NCBI GenBank assembly: GCA_015956445.1
Contig: WIUZ02000007.1
Coordinates: 1,116,001 to 1,180,000 of the forward strand
From: Thelephora terrestris
Taxonomy: Eukaryota; Basidiomycota; Agaricomycetes; Thelephorales; Thelephoraceae
Direction: 5' to 3'
Length of the DNA: 64,000 bases
Below are positions 1,533-38,907 of the stretch, piece by piece. The position numbers and the translations under genes are program-made. Below the pieces are notes generated by a model that saw only the letters and a program-made list of their open reading frames with translations, did not search any database and was not told the origin of the DNA. Each line of letters starts with the position of its first letter. Positions within the stretch are counted from its first letter, which is position 1.

Positions 1533-3303
1533 TGTGATGATTTCGCCGTTTACCCCCTTTCATTTCTTTTATTTAACGCCTCATCACCACTAAGTCAGTT
1601 GGTGCCCTGCCCTAAACACGGCGGTAAACTGTTTATTATGCCATATGCCCTATGCCTAACGATTCAAAGTCCAATATGTGGAACGTGCTACTAGTCAAGA
1701 TACCCCAGAAGACCCGAGGTATAATACGTGAACATGTACCGGCGAACCTTCATACGAAGATTCCCCCTACCTGGCCCTCCGTTGCCCCTGGACGACTAGT
1801 AGATATTCAGGCTACCGACAACAAGGGATGTATTAATAAGTGTCGCGCGTTGACCTCTCGCAGAAGTCAACCGGCTTATTAATCTGACCCTTGGATTGAA
1901 CTTACGAAAACCATTATGCTTTACGACTCATGGATCACACGCAATAGACAAGACAAAGGATAAATTCCAAAGGAGCCCCTACAAACAAGGAACTAGTCTA
2001 CGTCCCTAATGATCCTCTGGACCACTTCCAGAGCACTCCGCACTAGTTCCTCTTTCGCCCAATTCTGCTCCCTAATTTCGTTCGGGTCCACGTCCGACAG
2101 GTCCTCATAATCTGGAAGCTCCGTGTCAGAGTTTGGCTCGCTATCGGGAACGAACTCGGCGTACGGATCATACTCCAGGGCAGGCCATTGACGACGACTA
2201 CCCCAAGGAGTAGATACGAACCCAGGACGAGGAGTGTCCCTACGGACGACTCCTACGTTCTGGTAGAATTCGTCGCTCCCGATCTCAATGACCTCATCGT
2301 CAACAGGAACTAACCTGTCCTCGTAACGGACCAACAAACGAGCAGGCGGCGACTCAGCCCGATTGGGAATTATCGGTGAACCGGCCCAATGCGGAACCTC
2401 CAACTCCTCCTCTTCGACTCGGACCTCCGGCTCGTTACACCTCCTCTGGAGATCTCGGACTTCTCCGGTCAACTCAGAGACACGACGAGTAAGGCGAACC
2501 TAAAGGAATAGGGTTAGAAGATAATAAAAACCTTCAACCCCTACCCCTTACCTTGTCGTCCTCCAATTCTCCAGTCTTGGTAACCAGAGCCCGAACCAAG
2601 TCCTTCAGAGTGGACAACTCTCCCTAGAAGAAAATGTTAGGTTAGAGATGTCAAATATCTCCCGACCCCACATTTACCTTCAACAAATCAATGTCGGCGC
2701 CCTGCCGAACAACGCTATCTTCCTGACCATGAATTACGCCTTGCATATCTTCCTTCCAATTCTCCAAAGCTTCTATCTCCTCGCGACGACCATCAATGCG
2801 CTCGTTGACATGAGCCACTTCATCCATTAACATGGACCCAACGTTCCCCGTATGAAGAACGCTGGCCTCCAACACGGAGTTGAAGGTCTCATTGGCCTCG
2901 GTAACGAACTCCACACCCCTGTTAAGGAGTTCGTTCGCATAAGGGTTAGTCTCGATACACGCCAACTTGCGCCGAGACACCCTTCGAGCAGCCTGGAGAA
3001 AGTCCCTGAAACCTAAAAGGAGTTAGTTCGCTTTCCTAAATCGGAATGCGCAACCAGACCCCCCACCTAGATCAGAGAACCCTTCATTAGGGTCGGCGGT
3101 GGCGGTCCGGTCCATAACAGCTCCCAAAGTGGGATAAGGGCGAGAAGGATCACGACGGGTGTGGGAGAAGCGATCAATATTGTAGTTGTTCTCCTGAACA
3201 GGAGAGTAAGAGGAAGAGCGACGAGTGGGATTGCGAGTAGAGGCACGAGGCATGTTGGCTGTGTAACAAAGGTGGGTTTGTTGGAAGACCAGTCATCCAA
3301 CCC
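1533..3303 (+). mobile_element. Family-2 giant LTR unit, copy 2a (incomplete)
   Basis: Family-2 unit inserted in 1a. It starts TGTGATGATTTCGCC, the same end as 2c and, inverted, 2b. Only about the first 1.8 kb is present; at 3303 it abuts unit 1b. Over the shared part it looks nearly identical to 2b, and its predicted exons translate identically, so it is recent. It carries most of the antisense coiled-coil gene. Confidence 0.8.
1993..3253 (-). CDS. Antisense coiled-coil gene of LTR unit 2a
   Basis: Spliced gene on the strand opposite the LTR promoter, start at 3253 (MPRASTRNPTRR). The exons match the copy at 19827-21087, where the gene is described in full. The middle exons are helical and charged; the last is acidic and proline-rich. 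No domain is recognised. Confidence 0.6.
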
Positions 3304-3623
3304 TGTCAGGAACATGGTATTTTTAAACTTTTTATAACACACTCTTTCTTCGAACTCTTCTTACCACTTCTTATGTTTTGAATGCTTCACACTCCTTATC
3401 CTTCATACCCAACATTCAAAACACACAAACGCGCATACATTCACGGCAATACGGAACAACTGGCTATACAATGCTTATACAACGTCCTCAAAAGTCGACT
3501 CTATCTACGGCAGGTCTCGTGATCATCACCCTCCCATCCCGGAGATCGTAGTGCTGGCCCCTCCTCGCAAGGACCTCCCCGAACATGGCGTCACCATCTT
3601 CGGCACTCAGCTGAACGACGAGT

Positions 3624-5230
3624 TCAAGCCGATAGGAAGAGATGCCTTCGAGCGGACCGATCAGCCTCCCAGATGTCACCGAACTCTGGAACACCTGGTC
3701 CCACATCTCCATCACTGGGTGACTGCTCTGCAGCACTATCGACGTAGTCGAAGAGCGACCCTCCGTCTCCCTCGTCACACCCCTGGGTGGGATCCTCTCT
3801 TGCGAGTCGAAGCTCGTGGCGAAGCTGGATCTCCGACTCGACCTGTCGGTAGGGACGGTTGACCCGATAGCGGAACTCTCGTCCCCCACCTCGACCAGAC
3901 TGGTCACCATCCGACTCAACTGGACGCGGGTATGGGTTAGCCGAAGGAGCCATACGATGAGCAAGGCGACGTCGAGAGCGTTTACAACGCTGCCCCTTGA
4001 TCACCGGACGTACCTCTATGGCCCTCGGAACATCTTCGGCCCGGTCGACCTCCATGACCTCATCCTCGATCTTGATCAGCTGACTGATCGGCTGCAACGG
4101 GCAACGACGACAGTTCTCCTTGTCGGACTCGGCCAACGTAGAAGTCGGAGCCGGAGTCGGGACAGGAACCGCGTTCTCTACCGGAGGTGTCGCATAGGAT
4201 GACGGGTTAGGCGATGGGAGTACCACCTCGTCGGCGTACTCCAGCTCGAACGGAACGTCGGCAGTCCCCTCACCGACCAACTTCGGACCTTCCTTGCAGT
4301 TGCAGGTCTTATCCTGCAAGGAAGCGACCTGAGCCATCAACACCGCCACCACGTCCTCGAGCTGTTCGGTCTAGGAAATGTCAGCTTCCATCATTCTAAA
4401 ACAAATGATGAAAGCGGCATTACCGATGTATCTCTCCTGTTCAGCGCCCCCTTGATGTTGTTGTCCCTGACTTTCAGCCCGGCGATCAACTCTTGATGGT
4501 TGGCGACCATTGCCTCCAACGCCTCGTTCGTTCCCTGCTGGAAGGCGGCCAGAGTCTCCTTCATCTGAAGACTCTCCGCTGACAGACGAAGGACGTCTGC
4601 CTTCGCCTCCTTCACCTCGCGCTCCAATTGTTCAACCTAGGCAGTTTGGTTAGTCGAGAGTCATACTCGAATATCCAAACAGGAGAACCTACTTTGCTCT
4701 CCCCCTCCCGAACGAGCGACCACAGTAACGAAGTGGCGGCGGTGGCATGACGGACGGCCCGAGGAACGGTTGCCCCGTGCTCCAACAGGTCCTGATCGTA
4801 GATCCCCCGTTGCAGGGTGTACCAGAGCTCCTTCTTGATCGGGTGCTCCAACTCCCCGAACCTACCCCTCATTCGGAAGACCACCTTCTCGGCGATCATG
4901 GTCCGGACCCAGAGCTCATCGTCCCAGGTCAATCCCATCAAATGAGGGATCGTCTCCCTGAGACGTTCGGCGTCCACCTCCTTGACGATCTCCAAGATCT
5001 AGAAGCCGTTAGTCGGACATCAACACCCAAAAGAACGTAACCTCTACCTAGAGGAAGGAGTTAGCGCTAATACAAGAAGCCCTAGCTCTCCCCCATACCT
5101 GGTCATCAGTGGTATAGGGCGTTCCAGCCGCATTGGCATAGGTCTTGCGGGCGGCGGCACGACGGTCGATACGGGAGATGGTGGAGATGCCGTGGGCGAC
5201 TTTGTAGGTATAGTTGTTGGGGAAAGACAT
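3624..5230 (-). CDS. Antisense coiled-coil gene of LTR unit 1b
   Basis: Same four-exon layout as the gene at 14978-16582, start at 5230 (MSFPNNYTYKV). Its TATA-like CTTATA complement lies at 5298-5303, with a CACGTG box just beyond. A second long frame overlaps the last exon at 3488-3964, as in the other copies. Function unknown. Confidence 0.6.
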
Positions 5231-6126
5231 GTTTTGGTAAGGTGATGGGGAAGTTGCTGGTGTTGCTGATCAAGGATGGCTCCAAGAAGACGTCCTTCTT
5301 ATAGCCTAGATCGGTGATCCTTCACGTGACCTACCTCGACGAACCTCATTGGTCCGGGTCACATCAACTTCCGCCCCTGTACCATCATCGTTGGCTTACT
5401 ACATCAAGCTGACACCTCGGCCCGCGGGACGGCCTTGGAAGAACTTCGTTCCGGAACACCTAGAACGCACGCGCACTAAAAATAGGTCTCAAGACCCTGA
5501 TGACCCCTTTATGACATCACGAACCCCTTTTACGACCCCTCATGACTTTACGATTACGATCAACCCTGGACCCTGATCACACACGTGGACAGTCACATCA
5601 CAGTCTTCTAACCGAAGGAAGGACTCGCCGCTATTCGGAAGTATTGCCCTAGGATTCTTCTGGCTAGCCCAGCGCATGTGGAGTAGCCGTTAGCGTGAAA
5701 CGCCGGCGAATCTGTAATCCCTTATGTCCCATGAGTCTAGGCCCTCGCTCCTCATGTTCGGACGCACGATAAGGTTGCCACTAGTCCGTGATGCTGTTAC
5801 CGCCTACAGACAACAAGGGATGTTGTATGGTCTCTATCTTTGGCCTCTCCAAAGGAAGCATCCAAGAAGATTCTCACCTAGCTCTTGGGTGTGATCCCCA
5901 GGTACGAACTTTAATGACCCCATGCCCCTCTTTCTTTTGGACTAGTGTTATCTTTACCCCTATGTTTCATGCGGACATTCCTTATCTGTTATGCAATCCT
6001 TCACACGCTAGTAAGGCCCTTTGTCCTTTATTCTCCCACGTGTCATATTAGTTCGCTTCCCTTACTTAGCGTTCACACACTCCTTATCTCCCTTTGTTCG
6101 GACTCGATAAGGGTATATTAGGGTAT

Positions 6127-6155
6127 TGACGTCATGGCCACTCCTTTAGTATAAG
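6127..6155 (+). promoter_or_regulatory. LTR promoter of unit 1b (CRE palindrome + TATA)
   Basis: A perfect TGACGTCA palindrome at 6127-6134 lies 15 bases before TATAAG at 6150-6155. The pair recurs at matching places in 1a (1371/1394), 1c (25907/25930), 1d (29613/29636) and, inverted, 1e (14075-14082/14054-14059). TGACGTCA is the known ATF/CREB bZIP site; its use here is inferred. Confidence 0.5.
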
Positions 6156-6604
6156 TAGCAACTGTGGCTGTATCGTAGTACCTTAGTTTTGTTACCTCAG
6201 GAAATCCTCTGCCCTTCTCAGCCCAGTTGCAGTTAAGGACAAGTCAGAGTTTCTTGTTTGATCCAAGACATCCCCATCTGCTCTCCCTCCCGCTCTGCGC
6301 GTCAACTGCGCCTCGTAACTATAGAACCCCAGCGTTCATCTTATAGAACACCTCGAGCGTCCAGTCGATCACCTGGTGGAGTCATCAATCCTGTTGTAGA
6401 GATAAACCCTTGTCTGTTAAACCGAACAAAGTACGGTTTAGGTTGGGTTTCTCTTTAGGATTTCGACCTGACTTGTAGTGACCTCGGACAACCTACCGGA
6501 AGAACAGAGACGTGATCGTTCTCTCACAAGCTAGTTGGACTAGTGAGTACTCTGCGGAGTCGGCTCAGTGCACTGGTAGTTGTTGGGGTAGAGTGGCCCT
6601 GACA

Positions 6605-6773: not shown

Positions 6774-8141
6774 CACTGGGGACAGGGGTTGGTTCACTGA
6801 GTCAGTAAACTGTGAGTAAATCACAAGCAAATGGAAAAAGAACCCAGCGAAATACTTGCCTGGCAAGCACATAGCAAATTCACAATTTACTGAGCCAATT
6901 TACCTGCAATTTACTGGGTTCAGTATGTGCTCAGTATGTTTGCAGTTTACTGGGTCATGTGACTATGGTTTACCCATTAGGTAAACCTCGGAAAAATTCA
7001 CAATTTACTGAACAAATTTACCAGCAATTTACTGGGCCACTTACCCAATCAGCATGTTTTTAATTTGCTGAGTGATTTAATCACGATTTACTGGACTCAG
7101 TAAACTGGAAAAAAACCAAACTGGTTTACTGACGACGTACCTGATTGGTCAATTTGAAAAATATCCAAAAATTTACCTGGACGTGTCATTGTCAGTAAAC
7201 TGCAAGTTTTCTTTCAGTAAATTGGAAATACACGTCAGGTAAACTGGGAAAACATGTGACAATTTGATTGTGGTTTACTGGGCTCAGTAAATCAGAAAAG
7301 AACCTAACCAGTTTACTGACGATGTACCTGATTGGCTAATTTGAAAAAAAACTCGAAAATTTACCAGGACGTGTCTTTATCAGTAAACTGCAAGTTTTCT
7401 TTCAGTAAATCGCAAATACACGTAAAGTAAACCAGAAAACACGTGTAAACTGTAAGTAAATTCAAAGTTTATGTGTTTTCTGGTTTACTTTACGTGTATT
7501 TGCGATTTACTGAAAGAAAACTTGCAGTTTACTGATAAAGACACGTCCTGGTAAATTTTCGAGTTTTTTTTCAAATTAGCCAATCAGGTACATCGTCAGT
7601 AAACTGGTTAGGTTCTTTTCTGATTTACTGAGCCCAGTAAACCACAATCAAATTGTCACATGTTTTCCCAGTTTACCTGACGTGTATTTCCAATTTACTG
7701 AAAGAAAACTTGCAGTTTACTGACAATGACACGTCCAGGTAAATTTTTGGATATTTTTCAAATTGACCAATCAGGTACGTCGTCAGTAAACCAGTTTGGT
7801 TTTTTTCCAGTTTACTGAGTCCAGTAAATCGTGATTAAATCACTCAGCAAATTAAAAACATGCTGATTGGGTAAGTGGCCCAGTAAATTGCTGGTAAATT
7901 TGTTCAGTAAATTGTGAATTTTTCCGAGGTTTACCTAATGGGTAAACCATAGTCACATGACCCAGTAAACTGCAAACATACTGAGCACATACTGAACCCA
8001 GTAAATTGCAGGTAAATTAGCTCAGTAAATTGTGAATTTGTTTTGTGCTTGCCAGGCAAGTATTTCGCTGGGTTCTTTTTCCATTTGCTTGTGATTTACT
8101 CACAGTTTACTGACTCAGTAAACTAACCCTTGCCCCCAGTG
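6774..8141. mobile_element. Foldback element FB-A1 (CACTG ends, TSD AGA)
   Basis: A 1,368-base near-perfect palindrome centred at about 7,457. It starts CACTGGGGACAGGGG and ends CCCCCAGTG, with AGA at 6771-6773 and 8142-8144. The arms are dense in short motifs of the AGTAAACTG/CAGTTTACT type in both orientations. It has no coding capacity. CACTG/CAGTG tips and 3-base duplications are typical of the CACTA (EnSpm) group, so it is probably a non-autonomous member. Confidence 0.9.
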
Positions 8142-8678: not shown

Positions 8679-8935
8679 TGTCAGCGTGCTGAATTTTACC
8701 CTCTTTTTGAACCATTTTCACACCCAACTTTCGCCCACTTTCCTTACCTATACCCCTTTCTTATTTTGTCCCTTTCCCTTATCACAACTCACACATCATC
8801 AAAAGAACACAGACAAAGGCACAGATGATATTATATGGGCACATACACAACGAAGACACAAGACGACTAGCCAACGGAGTTGAATCCGCACGGACTCTAT
8901 GGACGACGAGGACTAAGGCATACAAACCCTAGTCA

Positions 8936-11192
8936 TCAAGACCTGGTCTGCCAGTACTCCTCAGCACTGGCAACCTCCTCCTCCGTCCCCTCCGAGGCAC
9001 TCTCGACGACTTCCTCGTCGACCATCTCGACGACCTGAGCTTCCTCCAGACGATGAGCTACGGCCAGCTGAACCTCGGCGCGAAGGCGGTTCCTCGCTGA
9101 ATCGACCATAGTCTGATCCTGAATCCTCTGGGCTGACCAACCCTCCACTCTCTCGGTCAGTTGAGCCACTAGGCGTACGGCCTCCGCTGCACGCTGGACC
9201 GACAAGAGCGTAAGGTTCGTTAACCCGTTCACGTCGACAGACTCCACGGGGATCAGCTCGCCGCGATCCAGGCGACACTGTAACATCGTCGCATCGGAAT
9301 AAGACGGTGGACTCAATGTCTCCACCCTGACGGACGACGTCGGGATTACTGGGACGCATGCGATGGGCTGGACGATGAGCACCAGGGTAAGGGACCCACC
9401 GGCGAGCACGGATGGAACGTTGTCCACGCACCGGAGAGATCGACGGAGGCGGAACCGGAACGGCCACCTCATTCTCCCCCGTGTACTCCAACTCCGGAGA
9501 ACTACTGACCGGGTTGACCGCCCTCTCCTCGGACATCTCGCGGACGACCTCCTCCCCGCCATTGGTACGCGCAGGCGTGCGGTACGAACCATCAGAGGCT
9601 AGCGGAATGTCAGCGGACAGGACAAATATGTCAACCAGCATCCCGAACCTATTGGGGAAGCCATCCTGTCTGGAATTGACTCGTCCCCGGACTCGTCTCG
9701 AACCGCCGCCACCGAACGAGTGCGGCAGTGGCATACACTGGGGGCAGGGGCACCTGGAATCAGTGATTACATCTTGATTACATGGTGAGTTCATGTGCAC
9801 TTTTCAATAATTGTAATTGCCGATTCCAGGTTGATTACATTTAAAATGTTACCTTGACATGTAATCCAACTGTTGCCACCAACTCCATTTGAAATTTCCT
9901 CAAGATGTTCCCAAGCAATGTTTCCTGAATGTGCCCAGTGGGTACATTGTGGAAACATCTCATGTTTTTGAGTGCATTTAGATTACATCTCGGACGATTG
10001 AAGAACATGCTGATTACATTGCAATATCATTTTTGCCGACAGGTCAAAAGCATCTCAGAAACATTTGTCGAGAACATTTCAAATGTAATTGGTGAACATT
10101 GGTTGGATTACATGTCAAGGTAACATTTGAGATGTAATCAACCTGGAATTGGCAATCACAATTATTGAAAAGTGCACATGTGTTTCACCATGTGATCAAG
10201 ATGTAATCACCGATTCCAGGTGCCCCTGCCCCCAGTGATAGTCGCTCACTCATGGATTCGACCCGAGCGCCCAGCAACGGCAAGGCGTCATCCAGCGTGT
10301 CAACCTAGAAGTGGCATGAGCTCTCTTGGTTAAAGACCAGGAGAAGTCGCACCAACCTTGGTGTCCAACTCGTTCAACGCCCTTCTATGACGGTTGAGCC
10401 GTCGATCGACCTCGATCAGGTCCCGCTGTATGGTGTCGTCCCTTTCCTTCAACGACTCGACCAGTCGGTTGTGTTCCTCCCGCATCGCCAGCATCTCGCT
10501 CTCGAACGTCACCCAAAGAGTGTCGTTCATCAGGAGGAGCGTCTTCTTGGTGTCCAATGCCTCCGAGTACATCCTACGGGTGTCGTCCCCCGCTTCCTTC
10601 ACCTCGCGCTTCAAACGCTCATTCTACAAGCCAATCAGTGTTATCCCACAAGCGGGATGCACAGATCGACTCACCGCTTTCTGTTCCATCCGCAAAAGGA
10701 ACCAGAGACGGTGACCGACGGCAGCTGTGTAGGGTTGCGAGCGGGTAGCCCCAGGCCACCTTCCTTCGCCATTCCCCAGATCGTAGATCCCCATCCGCAG
10801 AAGCCCCCACAGCGACAAAGCCACAGGAGTTTCCCACGGCATGCGCAACTCGGTATTGAACGTCACCCCACGCATCGACTCTTGTAGTTTGTGGTCGATC
10901 AAGTTGTGATACCACAACTCGTCGTCCATAGTCAAATAGCTGGGAGGCTTGGCGATCGTCACCTCCAGTTGCCAAGCATCCACCTTGTCGGCGGCCGCGA
11001 AGATCTACAAATGTGATGTCAGTTGTTGCCAGCAAACGGCGACATGTGACGTCGCACCTCACAATAGCTGGGATATGCCACGTTGGCGTTCGGAAGGAAG
11101 TACCCTTTGTTTCCTACGGACCGAGGATCCGCAGACTCGATGGTAGCGGTGCTGTTCTCAGCACGGAAAACACGATTGGAGATCATGGGCAT
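8936..11192 (-). CDS. Antisense coiled-coil gene of LTR family 3
   Basis: Spliced gene opposite the LTR promoter. Exons: 11192-11058 (starts MPMISNRVFRAENS), 11004-10675, 10623-10357, and a last exon from 10304 that houses FB-B1. Exon 2 has MDDELWYHNLID and RMGIYD, matching WDDELWVRTMIA and QRGIYD in exon 2 of family 1. Exon 3 starts KREVKEAGDD against EREVKEAKAD. So families 1 and 3 share a homologous gene. The last exon encodes an acidic, Glu-rich C-terminus, and a second frame is also open there. Function unknown. Confidence 0.5.
9736..10237. mobile_element. Foldback element FB-B1 (TSD ATA)
   Basis: 502-base palindrome, CACTGGGGGCAGGGGCACC... to ...CCCCTGCCCCCAGTG, flanked by ATA on both sides (9733-9735, 10238-10240). 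The body is built of GATTACAT/ATGTAATC motifs and is unrelated to FB-A apart from the tips. It sits inside the last exon of the family-3 antisense gene. No coding capacity. Confidence 0.9.
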
Positions 11193-11643
11193 GATGGAGT
11201 GAGTAGTTGGTTGGTGGGAGTGTTGATTTGGGAAGAAGGGAGTTTGATGGATCCAACGGCCGGTTCGCGCTACGCTTTATCCGATCATCGATAGCGCTCG
11301 CGCCCTATTCGCCATTGGACCGGTCCATCCTTTTACCGGCTCAGACTCCCCATACATTCGCCTCGACATTCAAGCCCCACTCGGTCTTTTGATGTCCCGA
11401 TCGGACGAGCTGACGTGTCGTCTCTCTATTGGTCAGTCTTCGCATGTGATATTGTTCTTTGTCATTCCTTTCCCACACGACGTCATGACCCCTTTCTTAT
11501 TCTCTCACGAACCCTGACCCATTAGTCATTCCTTTATCATTTCTATTCTATGTTCCGGGCCGCTTACTGTTCTGGCTTACTCTCGGCCCTTCTTTGCTCC
11601 GAGTTATTATTAGATAGGGTTATCTCTGTCCCGGCCACTCTCC

Positions 11644-11651
11644 TATATAAG
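11644..11651 (+). promoter_or_regulatory. TATA box of LTR family 3
   Basis: TATATAAG about 465 bases before the right end of the family-3 unit, followed by a pyrimidine-rich stretch. Its place matches TATAAG in family 1 and TATATATA in family 2, which supports calling the right-hand part R/U5. Confidence 0.45.
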
Positions 11652-14053
11652 TACCAGTAGAGTAGCTGAGGACTCCCCATCTTTGATATCTCGGGAAGTC
11701 CTCTTCTCCTTACAGCATCGGTGTATTTGCTGTAGGCCACTGAAGAGCTTATTGAGTACCTCTTGGAACATGTTCGCTCTCCTCTCTCTCTCGGCCTTGT
11801 ATCAAGAACTGGCGAACGCGCTTACGAAAAGGAGTTCCTCATCGCTCTCTTGATCAAGCACCAGTTTGAGGCACCATCCTCGGGCTCTTATATCTGCCCT
11901 CAGACGACGATAGGGATTTATCAGATAGAGGCTCGGCACTCCTGCTGTGAATTCAGACAACCTACCGGAGAACGCTCGTCCATCGCGTTTTGGACCACGT
12001 AGACTTTGGGTGGATATAGGGAAGTTGTTCCCCCTTTGCCCCATTGTTTCTTGTTGGTTGGAGTTGCGACTCACCAACAGCACTGGTACCTGAAGGGCGA
12101 AGAGTGGCCCTGACATACACCTGCACTTCCTGTTCTTCTCACTGGGGGCAGGGGCACCTGGAATTGGTGATTACATCTTGATTACATGGTGAGTTCATGT
12201 GCACTTTTCAATGATTGTAATCGCCGATTCCAGGTTGATTACATTTCAAATGTTACCTTGACATGTAATCCAACCAATGTCCACCAATTTCATTTGAAAT
12301 GTTCTCAACAAATGTTTCTGGGATGGTTTTGACCTGTCGGCAAAAATGATACTGCAATGTAGTCACACTGGGGGCAGGGGTTGGTTTACTGAGTCAGTAA
12401 ACTGTGAGTAAATCACAAGCAAATGGAAAAAGAACCTAGTGAAATACTTGCCTGGCAAGCACAAAGCAAATTCACAATTTACTGAGCCAATTTACCTGCA
12501 ATTCACTGGGTTCAGTATGCGCTCAGTATGTTTACAGTTTACTGGGTCATGTGACCACAGTTTCCCCATTAGGTAAACCTCGGAAAAATTCACAATTTAC
12601 TGAGCCACTTGCCCAATCAGTATGTTTTTAATTTGCTGAGCAGTTTGATCACGGTTTACTGGACTCAGTGAACTGGAAAAAAACCAAACTGGTTTACTGA
12701 CAACGTCCCTGATTGGTCAATTTTAAAAATAAACGAAAATTTACCTGGACGTGTCATTGTCAGTAAACTGCAAGTTTTCTTTCAGTAAATTGGAAATACA
12801 CGTCAGGTAAACTGGGAAAACACGTGATGATTTGATCATGGTTTACTGGACTCAGTAAATCAGAAAAAAACCTAACCAGTTTACTGACAATGTGCCCAAT
12901 TGGCTAATTTGAAAAAAACTCGAAAATTTACCAGGACGTGTCGTTATCAGTAAACTGCAAGTTTTCTTTCAGTAAATCGCAAGTACACATAAAGTAAACC
13001 AGAAAACACGTGTAAACTGTAAGTAAATTCAAAGTTTATGTGTTTTCTGGTTTACTTTACGTGTACTTGTGATTTACTAAAAGAAAACTTGCAGTTTACT
13101 GATAAAGACACGTCCTGGTAAATTTTCGAGTTTTTTTCAAATTAGCCAATTGGGCACATTGTCAGTAAACTGGTTAGGTTTTTTTCTGATTTACTGAGTC
13201 CAGTAAACCATGATCAAATCATCACGTGTTTTCCCAGTTTACCTGACGTGTATTTCCAATTTACTGAAAGAAAACTTGCAGTTTACTGACAATGACACGT
13301 CCAGGTAAATTTTCGTTTATTTTTAAAATTGACCAATCAGGGACGTTGTCAGTAAACCAGTTTGGTTTTTTTCCAGTTCACTGAGTCCAGTAAACCGTGA
13401 TCAAACTGCTCAGCAAATTAAAAACATACTGATTGGGCAAGTGGCTCAGTAAATTGTGAATTTTTCCGAGGTTTACCTAATGGGGAAACTGTGGTCACAT
13501 GACCCAGTAAACTGTAAACATACTGAGCGCATACTGAACCCAGTGAATTGCAGGTAAATTGGCTCAGTAAATTGTGAATTTGCTTTGTGCTTGCCAGGCA
13601 AGTATTTGTCAGGGCCACTCTACCCCAACAACTACCAGTGCACTGAGCCGACTCCGCAGAGTACTCACTAGTCCAACTAGCTTGTGAGAGAACGATCACG
13701 TCTCTATTCTTCCGGTAGGTTGTCCGAGGTCACTACAAGTCAGGTCGAAATCCTAAAGAGAAACCCAACCTAAACCGTACTTCGTTCGGTTTAACACGTA
13801 AGGGTTTATCCCTACAACAGGATTGATGACTCCACCAGTTGATCGACTGGACGCTCGAGGTGTTCTAATGTGAACGCTGGGGTTCTATAGTTACGAGGTG
13901 CAGTTGACGCGCAGAGCGGGAGGGAGAGCAGACGGGGATGTCTTGGATCAAACAAGAAACTCTGACTTGTCCTTAACTGCAACTGGGCTGAGAAGGGCAG
14001 AGGATTTCCTGAGGTAACAAAACTAAGGTACTACGATACAGCCACAGTTGCTA

Positions 14054-14082
14054 CTTATACTAAAGGAGTGGCCATGACGTCA
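14054..14082 (-). promoter_or_regulatory. LTR promoter of unit 1e
   Basis: Inverted counterpart of the promoter in 1b: TGACGTCA at 14082-14075, then TATAAG at 14059-14054, reading toward the GGGCCACTC end of the unit. Confidence 0.5.
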
Positions 14083-14880
14083 ATACCCTAATATACCCTT
14101 ATCAAGTCCAGAACAAAGGGAGATAAGGAGTGTGAGAACGCTAAGTAAGGGAAGCGAACACGAATGACGCGTGGGAGAGTAAAGGACAAAGGGCCTTACT
14201 AGCGTGTGAAGGATTGCATAAAAGATAAGGAATGTTCGCATGAAACATAGGGGTAAGATAACACTAGTCCTAAAAGAAAGAGGGGCATGGGGTCATGAAA
14301 GTTCGTACCTGGGGATCACACCCAAGGGCTAGGTGAGAATCTTCTTGGATGCTTCCTTTGGAGAGGCCAAAGATAGAGACCATACAGCATCCCTTGTTGT
14401 CTGTAGGCGGTAACAGCATCACGGACTAGTGGCAACCTCAACGTACGTCCGAGCATGAGGAGCGCAGGCCTAGACTCATGGGACATGAGGGATTACAGAT
14501 TCGCCGGCGTTTCACGCTAACGGCTACTCCACATGCGCTGGGCTAAACAAAAGGAGTCAAAGGCACTCCTTCCGAATAACGGCGATTCCTTCCTCCGGTT
14601 AGGAGACTGTGATGTGACTGTCCACGTGTGTGATCAGGGTCCAGGGTTGGTCGTAATCGTAAAGTCATGAGGGGTCGTAAAAGGGGTTCGTGATGTCATA
14701 AAGGGGTCATCAGGGTCTTGAGACCTATTTTTAGTGCGCGCGCATTCTAGGCGTTCCGGAACGAAGTTCTTCCAAGGCCGTCCCGCGGGCCGAGGTGTCA
14801 GCTTGATGTAGTAAGCCAACGATGATGGTACAGGGGCGGAAGTTGATGTGACCCGGACCAATGAGGTTCGTCGAGGTAGG

Positions 14881-14912
14881 TCACGTGAAGGATCACCGAT
14901 CTAGGCTATAAG
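14881..14912 (+). promoter_or_regulatory. Promoter of the antisense gene in 1e (E-box + TATA)
   Basis: TCACGTGA (E-box core CACGTG) at 14881-14888 and TATAAG at 14907-14912 lie 66 bases before the start codon at 14978. Together with the LTR promoter this makes a pair of outward-facing promoters about 820 bases apart. The layout is kept in the other family-1 copies. Confidence 0.55.
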
Positions 14913-14977
14913 AAGGACGTCTTCTTGGAGCCATCCTTGATCAGCAACACCAGCAACTTCCCCACATCTTTACCAAC

Positions 14978-16582
14978 ATGTCTTTCCCCAACAACCATAC
15001 CTACAAAGTCGCCAACGGCATCTCCACCATCTCCCGTATCGACCGTCGTGTCGCCGCCCGCAAGTCCTACGCCTGTGCAGCTGGAACTCCCTATACCACG
15101 GATGATCAGGTATGGGGGAGGTCTAGAGCTTCTTGTGTTAGCACTAACGCCTTCCTCTAGGTAGAGGTTACGTTCTTTTGGGCGTTGATGTCCAGCTAAC
15201 GGCTTCTAGATCTTGGAGATCGTCAACGAGGTGGACGCCGAACGTCTCAGGGAGACGATCCCTCACTTGATGGGATTGACCTGGGACGATGAGCTCTGGG
15301 TCCGGTGCATGATCGCCGAGAAGGTGATTTTCCAGATGCGGGGTAGGTTCGGAGAGTTGGAGCATCCGATCAAGAAGGAGCTCTGGTACACCCTGCAGAG
15401 GGGAACCTACGATCAGGACCTATTGGAGCACGGGGCAACCGTTCCTCGGGCCGTCCGTCATGCCACTGCCGCCACCTCGTTATTGTGGTCGCTCGTTCGG
15501 GAGGGGGAGAGCAAAGTAGGTTCTCCGTTTGGATATTCGAGTATGACTCTCGACTAACCAAACTGCCTAGGTTGAACGGTTGGGGCGTGAGGTAAAGGAG
15601 GCGAAGGCAGACGTCCTTCGTCTGTCGGCGGAGGGTCTTCTGATGAAGGAGACTCTCGCTGCCTTCCAGCAAGGAACGAACGAGGCGTTGGAGGCGATGG
15701 TTGCCAACCATCAAGAGTTGGTCGCCGGGTTGAAGGTCAGGGATAACAACATCAAGGGGGCGTTGGCCAGGAGGGATGAAAAGGTAATGCCGCTTTCATC
15801 ATTTGTTTAGAATGATGGAAGCTGACATTCCCTAGACCGAAGAACTCGAGAACGTGGTTGCGGTGTTGTCGGCGCAGGTCGAGTCCTTGCAGGACAAGAC
15901 CTGCAATTGTAAGGAGGGTCCCAAATTGATTGGTCAGGGGACTGCCGACATTCCGTTCGAGTTGGAGTACGCCGACGAGGTGGTACTCCCATCGTCTAAC
16001 CCGTCGTCCTACGCGACGCCTCCGATCGAGAATGCGGTTCCCGTCCCAACTCCGGCTCCGGCTTCTACGTTGGCCGAGTCCGACAAGGAGAACTGTCGGC
16101 GCTGTCCGTTGCAGCCGATCAGTCAGCTGGTCAAGATCGAGGACGAGGTCATGGAGGTCGACCGGGCCGAAGATGTTCCGAAGGCCATTGAGGTACGTCC
16201 GGTGACCAAGGGGCAGCGTTGCAAACGCTCTCGACGCCGCCTTGCTCATCGCATGGCTCCTTCGGCTAACCCATATCCGCGTCCAGTTGAGTCGGATGGT
16301 GACCAGTCTGGTCGAGATAGGGGACGAGAGTTCCGCTATCGGGTCAACCGTTCCTACCGACAGGTCGAGTCGGAGATCCAGCTTCGCCACCAGCTTAGAC
16401 TCGCAAGACAGGATCCCACCCAGGGGTCCGACGAGGGAGACGGAGGGTCACTCGCCGACTACGTCGATAGTGCTGCAGAGCAGTCACCCGGTGATGGAGA
16501 TGTGGGACCAGGTGTTCCAAAGTTCGGTGACATCTGGGAGGCTGATCGGTCCGCTCGAAGGAGTCTCTTCCTATCGGCTTGA
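14978..16582 (+). CDS. Antisense coiled-coil gene of LTR unit 1e (type copy)
   Basis: Four exons, all introns in phase 0 with GT-AG ends: 14978-15109, 15210-15515, 15571-15783, 15836-16582; about 465 residues. Exon 1 is short and basic. Exon 2 is a compact helical segment with WDDELWV and ELWYTLQRG. Exon 3 is a heptad-like coiled coil (GREVKEAKADVLRL). Exon 4 starts with more helix and a CNCKEG pair, then turns acidic and proline-rich with a basic patch (CKRSRRR) that could be a nuclear signal. No enzyme motif is visible. A second frame is open at 16242-16718. Exon 2 and 3 resemble those of family 3. Conservation over five copies argues that it is or was expressed; the role is unknown. A regulatory or capsid-accessory role cannot be told apart from sequence alone. 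Confidence 0.65.
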
Positions 16583-17262
16583 ACTAGTCGTTCAGCTGAG
16601 TGCTGAAGATGGTGACGCCATGTTCGGGGATGTCCTTGCGAGGAGGGGCCAGCACTACGATCTCCGGGATGGAAGGGTGATGATCACGAGGCCTGCCGTA
16701 GATAGAGTCGACTTTTGAGGACGTTGTATAAGCATTGTATAGCCAGTTGTTCCGTATTGCCGTGAATGTATGCGCGTTTGTGTGTTTTGAATAATGGGTG
16801 TGAAGGATAAGGAGTGTGAAGCATTCAAAACATAAGAAGTGGTAAGAAGAGTTTGAAGAAAGAGTGTGTTATAAAAAGTTTAAAAATACCATGTTCCTGA
16901 CAGTATTTCACTAGGTTCTTTTTCCATTTGCTTGTGATTTACTCACAGTTTACTGACTCAGTAAACCAACCCCTGCCCTCAGTGTCAACATGTTCTTCAA
17001 TCGTCTGAGATGTAATTCAAATGCGCTCAAAAACATGAGATGTTTTCCCAATGTACCCACTGGGCACATTCAGGAAACATTGCTTGGGAACATCTTGAGG
17101 AAATTTCAAATGGAGTTGGTGGCAAAAGTTGGATTACATGTCAAGGTAACATTTGAAATGTAATCAACCTGGAATTGGTGATTACAATTATTGAAAAGTG
17201 CACATGAACTCACCATGTAATCAAGATGTAATCACCAATTCCAGGTGCTCCTGCCCCCAGTG

Positions 17263-17872
17263 TCTTCACTGGTCAAATGCGTGCAACGTTTGCGTGCCCA
17301 TACACCAAGGAAGGTGAGAGGATCGGTGGCGGCGATATCAAGATCATTTGGAAGGAATTCAGAGAGATATTGAACGGCGGTGGGGTCAGAACGTTGAGAG
17401 TACAGTGATTTCACCTCTGCGCGGAGTGGGGAGTCTTTTGGTCGGTAGTAGACAGATGAGAAGGCTTGCCACTTCTGCAGCGGAGGTTTCTTGCGAGAGC
17501 CTTTCCCAGCAAGGTCAAGGATTGGCTTTGACACTGCGGGGAGTGTCTTCTTCTGACGGTGACGATGGGTGTACCAGTTTGCTATGCGCTACAACGCAAC
17601 GTGAGTGGGGAGGCATGGACGCGAGTTGGCCAACAAACATGTACCGTTTGGAGCCGTTCCTCAGCCAATTGCTGCGCCTTTTCAGAGTCATCACCAGCAG
17701 CCTTCAGCATACCTGGGGTGGGATCTACCGGCCACTTCTTGAGGAAAGTCACCGCCGTTCGAACATAGAAGTGTTTGAGCGTGCCTCCACCGGACTTGAT
17801 GATCTCCCACTTAGAGTCTTCTTGGATGAGGAACTCCTGTTGTTCTGGCGTCGCCCAGGGAGAGGGAGCCAT
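17263..17872 (-). pseudogene. 5' segment of split gene G1
   Basis: Start at 17872 (MAPSPWATPEQQEFL). Exon 1 runs to 17645, then a 56-base GT-AG intron, then exon 2 from 17588 with RIANWYTHRHRQKK and PLQKWQAFSSVYY. It is cut by FB-B2 after LTSED. I recognise this N-terminal type (WATPEQ, then a tryptophan-bearing basic stretch and a QAY/QAF...YY segment) as a repeated Agaricomycete protein of unknown function. The 21 bases at 12116-12136 and the segment at 8142-8678 continue it. Host-like gene, now scattered over at least 11 kb. Confidence 0.6.
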
Positions 17873-19762
17873 CAGAGAGGACGAGGACTTGTACCCAGGT
17901 GGAAAGAGGTCAGAAGGAAATGAGCTGGCATATCATGTGACACAGTCGGCACTTCTTTTGACAAATCATCATTCCTGGGAGATGCCGGCCTGTTGATTGA
18001 TCAGCTTTTATCGCCCCACTTTTTTCCCAAGGCACAATTACCCCACGCGGTGGAAGCAAGGCAGTGCCCACGCCAGCGCCTTCCCTTCTGCACTTCCCTT
18101 CCACTCTCCCCAACATGACTGGGCATCGTTTTCCAGGCGACTCCAAAGCCGATGGCCCCAGAGATGTTGACGAGTACATATATGAGTCTGACAGTGAGGA
18201 AAACCTGGCCCGCGCCGCTCAGGAACTTCTTCAACTGACCGGGGGGAATTATCGATGTAAGTGAAGTTGCTCTGCGCTTGGTCAGCTTGGTCTGACCTGG
18301 CTCTAAGACACACGAGCAGCCGTTCTAGCGTACACTCGGTGAGTTTTACCCTCTCTACTCCAAGACTTGAATTCTAATGCTAGTTCGCACAGGCCAGATC
18401 TAAACTATGTTTCCTCCACGACGCCAGGAAGTCCCCGCTCACGTTCATTGTCCCATGTTGCCACGTCATTTCACAAAGCTCGTTCAACATCCCAACGTCC
18501 AGCGATTCGTTCGACGCCTGAACCTTCGGAGTCTGGCCCAATCCTGTCACGTACTTGAAGCGTGCCCCCAGACGACAACCAGGCTAGGGCAAGGTTTATC
18601 ACGCCCCCACCCACCCCTGCTCCTTCCAGACGTCCACGTGCTTTGAAGAGGGCCGTTACTCAAGAATCTGAAACTTCGGGGATGTCCGATGCCCGTGAAC
18701 CCGAAACTCCAGGGAAGTCTGTCGTTCGTACACCCCAAACTTCGAGGGCAGGTGGTACTCGTGAAGCCAAAACACCACGCCCTCCGCGCCGCAGAGTAGC
18801 ATCCTGTGAAGAGTCAGAAGACTCAGAGTATCTCCCTGTTCCAATCATCAAAGGGTTGCATCACCGCACACTCCTCTATCCGCTTTTGAAAGCCAAGGGG
18901 TTGCTCGACTATTTTAGGATGGAAGACGGTGTCTCCAAACACCCTCGCCAAGGTATGTGACTTTTGTTTTTCTCCAATTCTGTCACTAATGTAACTTAAC
19001 ACAAGACATCCTCCACATGTTGGAGTTGATTGCATCAGATCGATCCTGGTTGTGTGATGCTAACTACATCGACGCCAGCCTCGTTGACGGTGCAAAGCGG
19101 GAAATTTTACGACCAACCACCAATGCCACTTCTCATCGCTGGTACACTGTCGTCTGTCAGGCCGACACGACCTCTACAGTTCAATAGCACTCTTGCTATC
19201 CAAACCTTTCACAATACAAGGATCAAACACACAGTTATAACCTTGTTGCAAACCCAGGGATATCGGAAGTCTCTTCACAGACTAGATTGGAAGAGAGGAG
19301 AAAGAAGGAGACAAGGGTCTTCAGGCACTCTTGCTCTAAGCACACAGCAGTAGAGGTCACGGAGAGTCTGATGATAACAAATCTAAGGAGTACAGGCTAA
19401 ACTACTCTGAGTATATATACTACTTAGATTTGTGACGTGACAGTGACATGTAACTACACTAATGATACAAACACAGACAAACATGGTCCGTGCACAGCAC
19501 TGCATGGTCTGTGCGTTACGTGGTGACTAATGCTACAAATTATCAGCTGATAAACGAAAGTGTGGCGGCCAATAGCAATTTGAGAGCATTACAGAGCAAT
19601 TACAAAGCATGACGTATCCTGGGAATGTTCGGAAGGAATGTGGGTATGACTGACTAACAGCCAATGGCAAAAGGGGAGCATATGATGTCATGTGGGTCAT
19701 GCGCAGTAAACAATAGAAAGGATGACTCAACTCCTGAGTCGTGGAAGGGGCGTGGCATTTGG

Positions 19763-19769
19763 TATATAA
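19763..19769 (+). promoter_or_regulatory. TATA box of the antisense gene in 2b
   Basis: TATATAA 57 bases before the start codon at 19827. The LTR-sense TATATATA lies at 19413-19420 on the other strand, giving outward-facing promoters about 340 bases apart. Confidence 0.5.
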
Positions 19770-19826
19770 CCAAAGGGGGTTGGATGACTGGTCTTCCAAC
19801 AAACCCACCTTTGTTACACAGCCAAC

Positions 19827-21087
19827 ATGCCTCGTGCCTCTACTCGCAATCCCACTCGTCGCTCTTCCTCTTACTCTCCTGTTCAGGAGAACAACTACAA
19901 TATTGATCGCTTCTCCCACACCCGTCGTGATCCTTCTCGCCCTTATCCCACTTTGGGAGCTGTTATGGACCGGACCGCCACCGCCGACCCTAATGAAGGG
20001 TTCTCTGATCTAGGTGGGGGGTCTGGTTGCGCATTCCGATTTAGGAAAGCGAACTAACTCCTTTTAGGTTTCAGGGACTTTCTCCAGGCTGCTCGAAGGG
20101 TGTCTCGGCGCAAGTTGGCGTGTATCGAGACTAACCCTTATGCGAACGAACTCCTTAACAGGGGTGTGGAGTTCGTTACCGAGGCCAATGAGACCTTCAA
20201 CTCCGTGTTGGAGGCCAGCGTTCTTCATACGGGGAACGTTGGGTCCATGTTAATGGATGAAGTGGCTCATGTCAACGAGCGCATTGATGGTCGTCGCGAG
20301 GAGATAGAAGCTTTGGAGAATTGGAAGGAAGATATGCAAGGCGTAATTCATGGTCAGGAAGATAGCGTTGTTCGGCAGGGCGCCGACATTGATTTGTTGA
20401 AGGTAAATGTGGGGTCGGGAGATATTTGACATCTCTAACCTAACATTTTCTTCTAGGGAGAGTTGTCCACTCTGAAGGACTTGGTTCGGGCTCTGGTTAC
20501 CAAGACTGGAGAATTGGAGGACGACAAGGTAAGGGGTAGGGGTTGAAGGTTTTTATTATCTTCTAACCCTATTCCTTTAGGTTCGCCTTACTCGTCGTGT
20601 CTCTGAGTTGACCGGAGAAGTCCGAGATCTCCAGAGGAGGTGTAACGAGCCGGAGGTCCGAGTCGAAGAGGAGGAGTTGGAGGTTCCGCATTGGGCCGGT
20701 TCACCGATAATTCCCAATCGGGCTGAGTCGCCGCCTGCTCGTTTGTTGGTCCGTTACGAGGACAGGTTAGTTCCTGTTGACGATGAGGTCATTGAGATCG
20801 GGAGCGACGAATTCTACCAGAACGTAGGAGTCGTCCGTAGGGACACTCCTCGTCCTGGGTTCGTATCTACTCCTTGGGGTAGTCGTCGTCAATGGCCTGC
20901 CCTGGAGTATGATCCGTACGCCGAGTTCGTTCCCGATAGCGAGCCAAACTCTGACACGGAGCTTCCAGATTATGAGGACCTGTCGGACGTGGACCCGAAC
21001 GAAATTAGGGAGCAGAATTGGGCGAAAGAGGAACTAGTGCGGAGTGCTCTGGAAGTGGTCCAGAGGATCATTAGGGACGTAGACTAG
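19827..21087 (+). CDS. Antisense coiled-coil gene of LTR unit 2b (type copy)
   Basis: Four exons with GT-AG introns: 19827-20013, 20068-20402, 20457-20528, 20581-21087; about 366 residues. Exon 1 is basic and serine/arginine-rich. Exon 2 is helical (RRKLACIETNPYANELL, then charged helix). Exon 3 is one short coiled-coil exon (LKDLVRALVTKTGELE). Exon 4 begins with helix and becomes strongly acidic (SDTELPDYEDLSDVDPNE). The plan is basic head, coiled coil, acidic tail, as in family 1, but I see no clear sequence similarity to family 1. Function unknown. 2a encodes the same residues over the shared exons. Confidence 0.65.
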
Positions 21088-21766
21088 TTCCTTGTTTGTA
21101 GGGGCTCCTTTGGAATTTATCCTTTGTCTTGTCTATTGCGTGTGATCCATGAGTCGTAAAGCATAATGGTTTTCGTAAGTTCAATCCAAGGGTCAGATTA
21201 ATAAGCCGGTTGACTTCTGCGAGAGGTCAACGCGCGACACTTATTAATACATCCCTTGTTGTCGGTAGCCTGAATATCTACTAGTCGTCCAGGGGCAACG
21301 GAGGGCCAGGTAGGGGGAATCTTCGTATGAAGGTTCGCCGGTACATGTTCACGTATTATACCTCGGGTCTTCTGGGGTATCTTGACTAGTAGCACGTTCC
21401 ACATATTGGACTTTGAATCGTTAGGCATAGGGCATATGGCATAATAAACAGTTTACCGCCGTGTTTAGGGCAGGGCACCAACTGACTTAGTGGTGATGAG
21501 GCGTTAAATAAAAGAAATGAAAGGGGGGGTAAACGGCGAAATCATCACATCGTCATGGGTACGGATGTTGGTATCTTCACATCATGGTTTGTCTGGTCTG
21601 TATTTTTGTAGTGCCACGCTAATTTTCTCTTAGGATTTCCGCCAGTCCCTACGTCACAGGCGTAAGTAGTGCAGTTCACCATTCTTTCGTTACCAAGCAG
21701 GAAGCATACCGTTGGTTCCAGTACGCTTTACTCCTTGGAACAGTCCAACTATTACCCAGCCCTTAG

Positions 21767-23084: not shown

Positions 23085-26000
23085 TGTCAGGAACATGGTA
23101 TTTTTAAACTTTTTATAACACACTCTTTCTTTGAACTCTTCTTACCACTTCTTATGTTTTGAATGCTTCACACTCCTTATCCTTCACACCAATCATTCAA
23201 AACACACAAACGCGCATACATTCACGGCAATACGGAACAACTGGCTATACAATGCTTATACAACGTCCTCAAAAGTCGACTCTATCTACGGCAGGCCTCG
23301 TGATCATCACCCTTCCATCCCGGAGATCGTAGTGCTGGCCCCTCCTCGCAAGGACCTCTCCGAACATGGCGTCACCATCTTCAGCACTCAGCTGAACGAC
23401 TAGTTCAAGCCGATAGGAAGAGACTCCTTCGAGCGGACCGATCAGCCTCCCAGATGTCACCGAACTCTGGAACACCTGGTCCCACATCTCCATCACTGGG
23501 TGACTGCTCGACAGCACTATCGACGTAGTCGGCGAGTGACCCTCCGTCTCCCTCGTCGGACCCCTGGGTGGGATCCTGTCTTGCAAGTCTAAGCTGGTGG
23601 CGAAGCTGGATCTCCGACTCGATCTGTCGGTAGGGACGGTTGACCCGATAGCGGAACTCTCGTCCCTGATCTCGACCAGACTGGTCACCATCCGACCCAA
23701 CTGGACGCGGGTAGGGATTAGCCGAAGGAGCCATGCGATGAGCAAGGCGGCGTCGAGAGCGTTTACAACGCTGCCCCTTGATCACCGGACGTACCTCGAT
23801 GGCCCTCGAAACATCTTCGGCCCGGTCGACTTCCATGACCTCGTCCTCGATCTTGACTAGCTGATTAAGCGGCTGCAACGGGCAGCGCTGACAGTTCTCC
23901 TTGTCGGACTCGGCCAACGTAGAAGCCGGAGCCGGAGTCGGAACGGGAACCGCATTCTCTACTGGAGGTGTCGCATAGGACAATGGGTTAGGTGATGGGA
24001 GTACCACCTCATCGGCGTACTCCAGCTCGAACGGAACGTCGGCAGTCCCCTCGCCAACCAACTTCGGACCCTCCTTGCAGTTGCAGGTCTTATCCTGCAA
24101 GGACGCAACCTGCGCTGTCAACACAGCCACCACGTCTTCGAGCTGTTCCGTCTAGAAGAATCTCTCAGTCATTGCATAAACCTGCAAAGGCTGAAAGGAC
24201 CTTTTCATCCCTCCTAGCCAGCGCTCCCTTGATGTTATTGTCCCTGACCTTCAACCCGGCGATCAACTCTTGATGGTTAGCAACCATCGCCTCCAACGCC
24301 TCGTTCGTCCCCTGCTGGAAGGCGGCCAGAGTCTCCTTCAGCTCAAGACCCTCTGACGACAGACGAAGGACTTCTGCTTTCGCCTCCTTCACCTCGCGTT
24401 CCAAACGTTCGACCTAGGCAGTTTGGTTAGTCGAGAGTCATACTCGAATATCCAAACGGAGAACCTACCTTGCTCTCTCCCTCCCGAACGAGCGACCACA
24501 ACAGCGTCGTGGCGGCGGTGGCGTGGCGGACGGCCCGAGGAACGGTTGCCCCGTGCTCCAACAGGTTCTGATCGTAGATACCCCTCTGCAGGGTGTACCA
24601 AAGCTCCTTCTTGATCGAGTGCTCTAGCTCCCCGAACCTACCCCTCATTTGGAAGATCACCTTTTCGGCGATCATGGACCGGACCCAGAGCTCATCGTCC
24701 CAGGTCAACCCCATCAAATGAGGGATTGTCTCCCTGAGACGTTCGGCGTCTACTTCCGTGACAACCCGCAAGATCTAGAAGTCGTTAGCTCAACGTCTAA
24801 AAGCCGATGCTATACGACCTGTACCTAGAGGAAGGCGTTAGTGCAAACACACGAAGCTCTAGACCTCCCCCATACCTGGTCATCGGTGGTATAGGGAGTC
24901 CCTGCTGCACAGGCGTAGGACTTGCGGGCAGCAACACGACGGTCGATGCGGGAGATGGTGGAGATGCCGTGGGCAACTTTGTAGGTATGGTTGTTGGGGA
25001 AAGACATGTTTTGGTAAGATGATGGGGAAGTTGCTGGTGTTGCTGATCAAGGATGGCTCCAAGAAGACGTCCTTCTTATAGCCTAGATCGGTGATCCTTC
25101 ACGTGACCTACCTCGACGAACCTCATTGGTCCGGGTCACATCAACTTCCGCCCCTGTACCATCATCGTTGGCTTACTACATCAAGCTGACACCTCGGCCC
25201 GCGGGACGGCCTTGGAAGAACTTCGTTCCGGAACGCCTAGAACGCGCGCGCACTAAAAATAGGTCTCAAGACCCTGATGACCCCTTTATGACATCACGAA
25301 CCCCTTTTACGACCCCCCATGACTTTACGATTACGATCAACCCTGGACCCCGATCACACACGTGGACAGTCACATCACAGTCTCCTAACCGGAGGAAGGA
25401 CTCGCCGCTATTCGGAAGCATTGCCTTAGGATTCTTCTGGTTAGCTCAGCGCATGTGGAGTAGCCGTTAGCGTGAAACACCGGCGAATATGTAATCCCTC
25501 ATGTCCCATGAGTCTAGGCCCGACCTCCTCATGTTCGGACGTACGTTGAGGTTGCCACTAGTCCGTGATGCTGTTACCGCCTACAGACAACAAGGGATGT
25601 TTGCATGGCTCTACTCCCGAATCCGCTGGTACAACTATGTAAAGGGAGATTGCCACCTGACCCTTGGGTGTGATCCCCAGGTACGAACTTTCATGACCCC
25701 ATGCCCCTTTTTCTTTTAGGACTAGTGTTATCTTTACCCCTATGTTTCATGCGGACATTTCTTATCTTTTATGCAATCCTTCACACGCTAGTAAGGCCCT
25801 TTGTCCTTTATTCTCCCACGCATCACCTTCGTTCGCTTCCCTTACTTAGCGTTCTCACACTCCTTATCTCCCTTTGTTCGGACTTGATAAGGGTATATTA
25901 GGGTATTGACGTCATGGCCACTCATTTAGTATAAGTAGCAACTGTGGCTGTATCGTAGTACCTTAGTTTTGTTACCTCAGGAAATCCTCTGCCCTTCTCA

Positions 26001-26382
26001 GCCCAGTTGCAGTTAAGGACAAGTCAGAGTTTCTTGTTTGATCCAAGACATCCCCGTCTGCTCTCCCTCCCGCTCTGCGCGTCAACTGCACCTCGTAACT
26101 ATAGAACCCCAGCGTTCACATTAGAACACCTCGAGCGTCCAGTCGATCAACTGGTGGAGTCATCAATCCTGTTGTAGGGATAAACCCTTACGTGTTAAAC
26201 CGAACGAAGTACGGTTTAGGTTGGGTTTCTCTTTAGGATTTCGACCTGACTTGTAGTGACCTCGGACAACCTACCGGAAGAATAGAGACGTGATCGTTCT
26301 CTCACAAGCTAGTTGGACTAGTGAGTACTCTGCGGAGTCGGCTCAGTGCACTGGTAGTTGTTGGGGTAGAGTGGTCCTGACA
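23085..26382 (+). mobile_element. Family-1 giant LTR unit, copy 1c (TSD TGCTG)
   Basis: 3,298 bases, TGTCAGGAACATGG to GTGGTCCTGACA, with perfect TGCTG at 23080-23084 and 26383-26387. Promoter pair at 25907/25930; antisense gene on the minus strand. Inserted inside the CxC2 region of the KDZ gene. Looks whole as a solo unit. Confidence 0.9.
23405..25007 (-). CDS. Antisense coiled-coil gene of LTR unit 1c
   Basis: Same four-exon layout as the gene at 14978-16582, start at 25007 (MSFPNNHTYKV). The second overlapping frame is open at 23269-23745. Function unknown. Confidence 0.6.
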
Positions 26383-34671: not shown

Positions 34672-34679
34672 TATATATA
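34672..34679 (+). promoter_or_regulatory. TATA box of LTR unit 2c
   Basis: TATATATA about 255 bases before the right end of unit 2c, just after an ATGTCACTGTCACGTCACA stretch with paired TCAC motifs. The same arrangement, inverted, is in 2b. Confidence 0.45.
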
Positions 34680-38698: not shown

Positions 38699-38907
38699 AG
38701 TGTCAAAAGTTGTTTATGAGAGGGAAGGTTGTTGTAGATTGGAAGGAGTGGAAAAGAGACAATGAGGGGAAAAGACCAAAAAACCCCACAGATTATATAC
38801 ACTCAGATCAATGGGACGCTCAAAAGGGTAACAACAATACACCATTACTCATTATTACCCCAAAAAGAATAAACGAACCCTCGGCCCCAATCGATCCCAT
38901 CAACCTT

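Follow-up and report, generated by a model that had tools for sequence, protein, structure and literature searches.

What is a repeat of 2.4-3.4 kb that has the ends of a long terminal repeat (LTR) and carries a multi-exon reading frame on the opposite strand? The question is raised by nine units, among them the one at 13607-16902, in a 64-kb stretch of Thelephora terrestris DNA (contig WIUZ02000007.1; "the window" means this whole stretch). The units were compared with the rest of the same genome (40.6 Mb; one genome was searched). They are very probably LTRs, mostly solo, of Ty3/gypsy chromodomain retrotransposons; the U3 region of these LTRs holds a protein gene that runs on the opposite strand and has a TATA box of its own and at least three short introns. 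The unit at 13607-16902 is one such LTR, single and derived from a Ty3/gypsy chromodomain element.

Single units and full elements

A preliminary description of the window had counted nine single units in three families, and the count holds: five units of family A (3.3 kb, one of them cut), three of family B (2.4 kb, one truncated) and one of family D (2.9 kb plus an insertion). Their lengths, their TG..CA ends and the TGTCAGG/CCTGACA end common to the families are as described there; coordinates are given in Table 1. The reported 5-bp target-site duplications are perfect for 22 of the 27 single A units and 23 of the 25 single B units examined in the genome; the flanks of the window D unit agree at four of the five bases. 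One 16-base A end occurs 404 times in the 40.6 Mb and one 15-base B end 174 times. The reversed controls both gave 0, so these counts are not due to chance. Families A, B and D are estimated to make up about 2 Mb of the 40.6 Mb, if most ends belong to near-complete copies.

Elsewhere in the genome, same-strand pairs of the A unit lie 8.4-9.3 kb apart. Three full A elements were fetched: the members of their LTR pairs (3.3 kb) differ at 0, 0 and 1 places, and each whole element has one outer 5-bp duplication (tgcac, ggcag and gtgat). The region between the LTRs encodes a gag that includes a zinc knuckle and a pol comprising protease, reverse transcriptase (RT), RNase H, integrase and chromodomain; part of gag is missing from one of the three elements, and the pol of one is broken by a stop. 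Pfam, run on one A element (L010), gave the order protease-RT-RNase H-integrase, with a C-terminal Chromo match (E 1.7e-16) after the integrase.

Searching the genome with RT yielded 94 matches: eight at 99-100%, three at 72% and the others at 43% or less. The eight are A-type copies: three were fetched, a fourth, on C1, is flanked by A ends at the distance expected, and the four others lie outside the sample. The 72% element that was fetched has LTRs of family D, 99.96% identical over the 2495 bases compared, and all three 72% copies are flanked by paired D exon 2 matches. In the elements checked (4/4 A, 3/3 D), gag-pol is antisense to the LTR gene.

The A and D units are LTRs, because same-orientation pairs of them flank gag-pol in the same genome. 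The genome search for such pairs had been proposed in the preliminary description, whose first suggestion, solo LTRs of a group with an LTR-borne gene, proves right for A and D; the true ends of the full elements are related to those of the single units. Its statement that gag and pol are absent has to be corrected: gag-pol is found elsewhere in the genome, though no RT match falls inside the window (gag was not searched for there). Most A copies are solo or partial, since eight A-type RT copies stand against 404 A ends. Two A-type RT copies, at C23:1035728 and C23:1045038, are separated by 9310 bases, which is the length of an LTR together with an internal part; they probably form an LTR-internal-LTR-internal-LTR tandem.

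The gene in the family A LTR

The gene of family A has four predicted exons and a product of 465 aa. It was analysed in 33 full copies of the LTR, a set in which each of the three full elements is represented by both its LTRs. The set consists of 31 of the 32 full-length matches in the genome and two further copies from the window; copy L035 (no single full match) lies outside it, the partial copies L036 and L037 are excluded, and the window unit at 26842-30090 was analysed separately.

The gene is intact in 28 of the 33 copies. Five have early stops, and one of these also lacks a splice site. All three introns are bordered by GT-AG in 32 copies. None of the 1398 coding columns of the alignment is gapped; the introns range from 97 to 101, 54 to 56 and 49 to 53 nt. 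Minor-allele counts at codon positions 1, 2 and 3 are 579, 401 and 1800, and the third positions, of which 313 of 466 are polymorphic, are much more variable than the remainder. Copy L034 is left out of the exon 2 alignment because of a stop. On a 30-copy tree, to which each of the three full elements contributed one LTR only, the ratio of nonsynonymous to synonymous change (omega, dN/dS) is 0.18 on internal and 0.19 on terminal branches; the median dS was computed on 80 of the 435 pairs. Terminal branches carry eight inferred stop changes against 127 expected; some of the eight are step-order artefacts (by sequence, six stops in five copies).

Between the three full A elements, dS is 0.21-0.26 and dN 0.009-0.018 for the gene; the values for pol are 0.19-0.22 and 0.007-0.009 (dN/dS 0.04-0.07 and 0.03-0.05, respectively). 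The LTR gene is nearly as constrained as pol. Gag, compared between two full elements, is looser (dS 0.36, dN 0.09), perhaps in part from misaligned N-terminal ends.

Judged by its pattern of change, the antisense reading frame is a protein-coding gene under selection, and it is apparently spliced; the multi-exon opposite-strand gene of the preliminary description is supported by the same pattern. Substitution in the gene is far from neutral in both A and B. A full element has two copies of the antisense gene and a solo LTR has one; the gene is selected along with pol.

Promoters and proposed self-priming

Read in the direction of gag-pol, the A LTR consists of a U3 of about 2.9 kb followed by R and U5 (together about 420 bases). 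The LTR-type promoter that had been placed near one end was found again, at distances that agree with those given: on the strand opposite to the gene, the LTR has a TATA box at position 448 (A), 473 (D) and 81 or 258 (B). The TATA box nearest to the gene is at position 1301 (A), 771 (D) or 609 (B); the corresponding start codons are at 1372, 932 and 673. By these TATA positions on the two strands, the sense and antisense promoters are divergent. In family A, the blocks that hold the two promoters are both highly conserved.

The first internal bases of the full elements are complementary to a word in the LTR, over 12 nt in A and 11 nt in D; the words of the two families differ in sequence. They begin 34 nt (A) or 33 nt (D) after the start of the TATA box, where the 5′ end of the RNA is expected. 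Among 500 shuffles of the whole LTR, the best reached 12 and 11 as well, and the shuffle test was therefore restricted by position: within the +34/+33 zone, 1 of 5000 shuffles reaches the observed length in each family. This suggests that the A and D elements may prime themselves as Tf1/sushi elements do.

Families D and B

The A and D proteins are homologous by alignment (30% over 417 aa, E 1.6e-30; exons 2 and 3 match). D exon 2 was scored at 150 of 568 candidate places and is stop-free at 139 of them. In B, the gene is modelled with four exons, which lie in the same part of the unit as in A. It is intact in 23 of the 25 copies examined (34 full-length matches in the genome), and its minor-allele counts by codon position (267/142/1376) have the same third-position bias as those of A. 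Similar DEV motifs are seen, by eye only, in the B and A/D proteins.

Candidates for a full B element were rejected. The sole place with the pattern based on the predicted B primer site (C6:814592) is a chance match: none of the three families matches the DNA at that place. Two inverted B pairs (C4, C12) are independent insertions, each unit having its own duplication. Of the ten units in five same-strand B neighbour pairs, six have a matching duplication and one (the second on C1) a mismatched one; three far ends lie outside the sequence read. At least one unit per pair is closed by its own duplication, which rules these pairs out as two-LTR elements.

Interpretation

The proposed cycle is as follows. 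Genomic RNA would start in R and fold back to prime its own reverse transcription, in Tf1/sushi style. The LTR gene would be transcribed separately, from the divergent promoter, and then spliced. Its introns would survive transposition because the genomic RNA carries the gene in antisense, in which it should be unspliceable. The protein might act on its element in trans, either as an accessory factor or as a regulator; this step is a best guess, weaker than the others. Recombination between LTRs would produce solo LTRs that retain the gene and then decay slowly.

Several results weigh against this reading or parts of it. Polymorphic columns of the A LTR amount to 39-43% in exons, 37-70% in introns and 18-37% in the non-coding part outside introns; this part is less variable than the exons, and therefore the whole LTR, not the gene alone, is constrained. 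Omega is 0.20 for solo and 0.10 for full copies (Fisher p 0.005), so that selection may no longer act on many solos; the gap fits neutral decay after insertion in 5-11% of solo-branch change, and therefore selection seems to act mainly through the replicating lineage. When the match may lie anywhere in the LTR, the self-priming length is reached in 20 of 5000 shuffles for A and in 32 of 5000 for D; the self-priming proposal therefore leans on position. The D gene model is provisional at its C-terminal end. The B protein has no significant match to the A or D protein, and the genome searches found no full B element, at least among the first 100 of the 174 B places. Pfam gave only sub-threshold matches for the LTR-gene protein (best E 0.08), searches of the PDB and of viral contigs gave no relative, and the structure model of exon 2 is all helix and poor (predicted local distance difference test, pLDDT, 53.8). 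The role of the protein is a guess, because it has no relative in the databases searched and a poor model; the LTR gene is known here from sequence alone.

The second suggestion of the preliminary description was that of self-contained, non-autonomous units: the 2.4-3.3 kb unit would itself be mobile, with LTR-type ends and enzymes from other elements. This is distinctly improbable for the units as a whole. Full A and D elements share their LTRs with the single units, so LTR-LTR recombination explains the solos and the suggestion is not needed for these families; it stays open for B only. There, 174 ends were counted with no full element, none of the five same-strand pairs is a two-LTR element, and about three full B elements would be expected at the ratio of A (8 RT copies/404 ends). 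The divergence of B bears the mark of selection, so that its source was alive until recently; the search would have missed a full B element whose RT or primer site had diverged. That the gene was recently captured from the host, or that the host has domesticated solo LTRs for their protein, is very improbable. Terminal branches leading to solos still seem constrained (omega 0.20), as domestication would have it, but the gene is shared by the LTRs of two families with a 28% difference in RT, full elements differ at synonymous sites about as much in the gene as in pol, and the neutral-looking share of solo-branch change is as expected for a short decay after insertion; moreover, no cellular relative was found in the searches, which lay outside fungal protein libraries. 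It is scarcely credible that the antisense frame is a by-product of an antisense RNA that regulates the element, the protein being irrelevant. Antisense non-coding RNAs from LTR elements are known from the available part of a review (PMC7264820), but the frame is free of indels, changes fall on third positions, stop changes are 16-fold below expectation and a homologous protein occurs in A and D. An RNA role in addition to that of the protein is possible.

Two further proposals concern what the protein does in an LTR-borne gene. As a self-limiting regulator, it would be supplied by the solos and would restrain copy number; this is possible, though on the doubtful side. Analogues are HBZ, which acts on the sense promoter, and the Gag-derived restriction factor of Ty1. 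The divergent promoters within one U3 and the excess of A ends over A-type RT copies would suit such a regulator, but simple recombination between 3.3-kb repeats would also leave many solos. Rather unlikely is a wider proposal in which the LTR is a mobile intron-bearing gene cassette and hundreds of solos supply the protein in trans, as a dispersed gene stock steering the few full copies. On that view, recombination to a solo LTR, which as a rule ends an element, would here add to the stock of working element genes.

Features of the window

Table 1. Units of families A, B and D in the window and parts of the family A LTR at 13607-16902.
Feature	Position	Strand	Remarks
Family A single LTR, 3296 bp	13607-16902	-	U3 at 16902, U5 end at 13607; same repeat as the LTR of full elements
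Target-site duplication, left	13602-13606		5 bp, GTATT
Target-site duplication, right	16903-16907		5 bp, GTATT
R-U5 part	13607-14025	-	predicted; RNA 5′ end expected near 14025
Proposed self-primer word	14014-14025	-	putative; matches site just inside full elements
TATA box, sense (genomic RNA) promoter	14054-14059	-	R word begins 34 nt past TATA start
TATA box, antisense gene	14907-14912	+	within conserved block from about 14880
LTR gene, exon 1	14978-15109	+	
LTR gene, exon 2	15210-15515	+	possible 6-base micro-exon at 15161-15166, within intron 1
LTR gene, exon 3	15571-15783	+	coiled-coil-like by eye
LTR gene, exon 4 to stop	15836-16582	+	
Family A LTR	1-1533	+	cut by window start and by B unit
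Family A single LTR	3304-6604	+	gene on minus, intact; no 5-bp duplication
Family A single LTR	23085-26382	+	gene on minus, intact
Family A single LTR	26842-30090	+	gene on minus, intact, in frame; intron 1 is 52 nt, not 100
Family B unit	1533-3303	+	truncated at A unit
Family B unit, 2395 bp	19155-21549	-	duplication TCGTC; gene on plus: 19827-20013, 20068-20402, 20457-20528, 20581-21087
Family B unit	32522-34934	+	gene on minus, intact; no 5-bp duplication
Family D single LTR	8679-12115	+	gene on minus, exons 11058-11192, 10675-11004, 10357-10623

The insertion in the D unit (near 9733-10243) breaks the exon 4 region; it has repeats in common with 12139-12365 and 16985-17263. Positions 1-6604 consist of A-B-A junctions: A is cut at 1533, and B is truncated exactly at the A end near 3303. 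These junctions, with the missing duplication of the A unit there, suggest recombination among units. Near-perfect palindromes, like foldback elements, lie at 6774-8141, 12442-13607, 36581-37681 and 35035-35989 (arms of 669, 568, 527 and 429 bases; loops of 30, 30, 47 and 97); the second abuts the A LTR at 13607.

Other genes of the window include two NACHT genes (NPHP3_N), at 41121-43880 (with WD40 repeats) and 51009-51932. They sit in a diverged duplicated stretch (43050-47058 versus 51102-55828). A Plavaka transposase and DUF6535 are also present, and this gene content is in keeping with a mushroom-forming fungus. A divergent pair of frames without Pfam match (38300-38713 and 39298-39747) resembles, by eye, a pair in L047 (925-1737 and 2300-2944) that is situated between two B units; it could be another gene-bearing repeat family.

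Comparison with known systems

The usual view takes LTRs to be control ends that encode nothing, and solo LTRs to be inert remnants. The LTRs described here are gene-bearing units from which LTR-LTR recombination cannot strip the gene. The antisense position would explain how a retrotransposon can long carry a gene with introns. It also offers a direct test of the role of antisense accessory genes, an issue not yet decided for the plant and fungal elements that carry them. In gene annotation, such LTR copies may be counted as hundreds of host genes.

Known systems share some of these features. Sag of mouse mammary tumour virus (MMTV) is a protein gene in the U3 of a long LTR, but lies on the sense strand and is expressed from viral RNA. 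HBZ of human T-cell leukaemia virus type 1 (HTLV-1), a retrovirus, is an antisense gene started from an LTR promoter, as the gene of A and D would be; it is spliced and encodes a bZIP protein, and its coding part lies largely outside the LTR. Known Tf1/sushi elements have a gypsy pol with chromodomain, like the elements described here, but their LTRs are short and non-coding. The original study of Boty and brtn is said to be that of Zhao et al. 2011.

Statements from the papers cited below refer to the parts of them that were available. HTLV-1 and others have an antisense promoter in the LTR, the 3′ LTR in HTLV-1 (PMC7264820). Self-priming is described for Tf1/sushi elements (PMC2864245) and is proposed here for A and D. 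The plant elements Grande, RIRE2, Retand and PvRetro13 have conserved antisense open reading frames (aORFs) of unknown function, and the Grande aORF has its own promoter and a nuclear product (PMC7264820). These aORFs lie in the internal region, whereas the A and D gene lies in the LTR; the available text of that review has no instance of the word "intron".

The nearest fungal case is Boty (BcGypsy1) of Botrytis cinerea, whose brtn gene lies antisense between pol and the 3′ LTR (PMC7264820, PMC8365987). The preliminary description, which knew of no fungal example, has to be corrected in this respect: like A and D, Boty belongs to a fungus and has an additional gene that runs antisense to gag-pol. 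The placement differs. The gene of A is antisense but inside the LTR, not between pol and the 3′ LTR as in Grande and Boty; because brtn lies outside the LTR, Boty should have one gene copy per element and none in its solos. In the literature searched, with Repbase and most subscription papers outside the search, no multi-exon, selected antisense gene within an LTR was found described. Antisense retrotransposon genes were already known; what appears to be new here is a multi-exon gene under selection that lies wholly inside U3 and is kept by solo LTRs.

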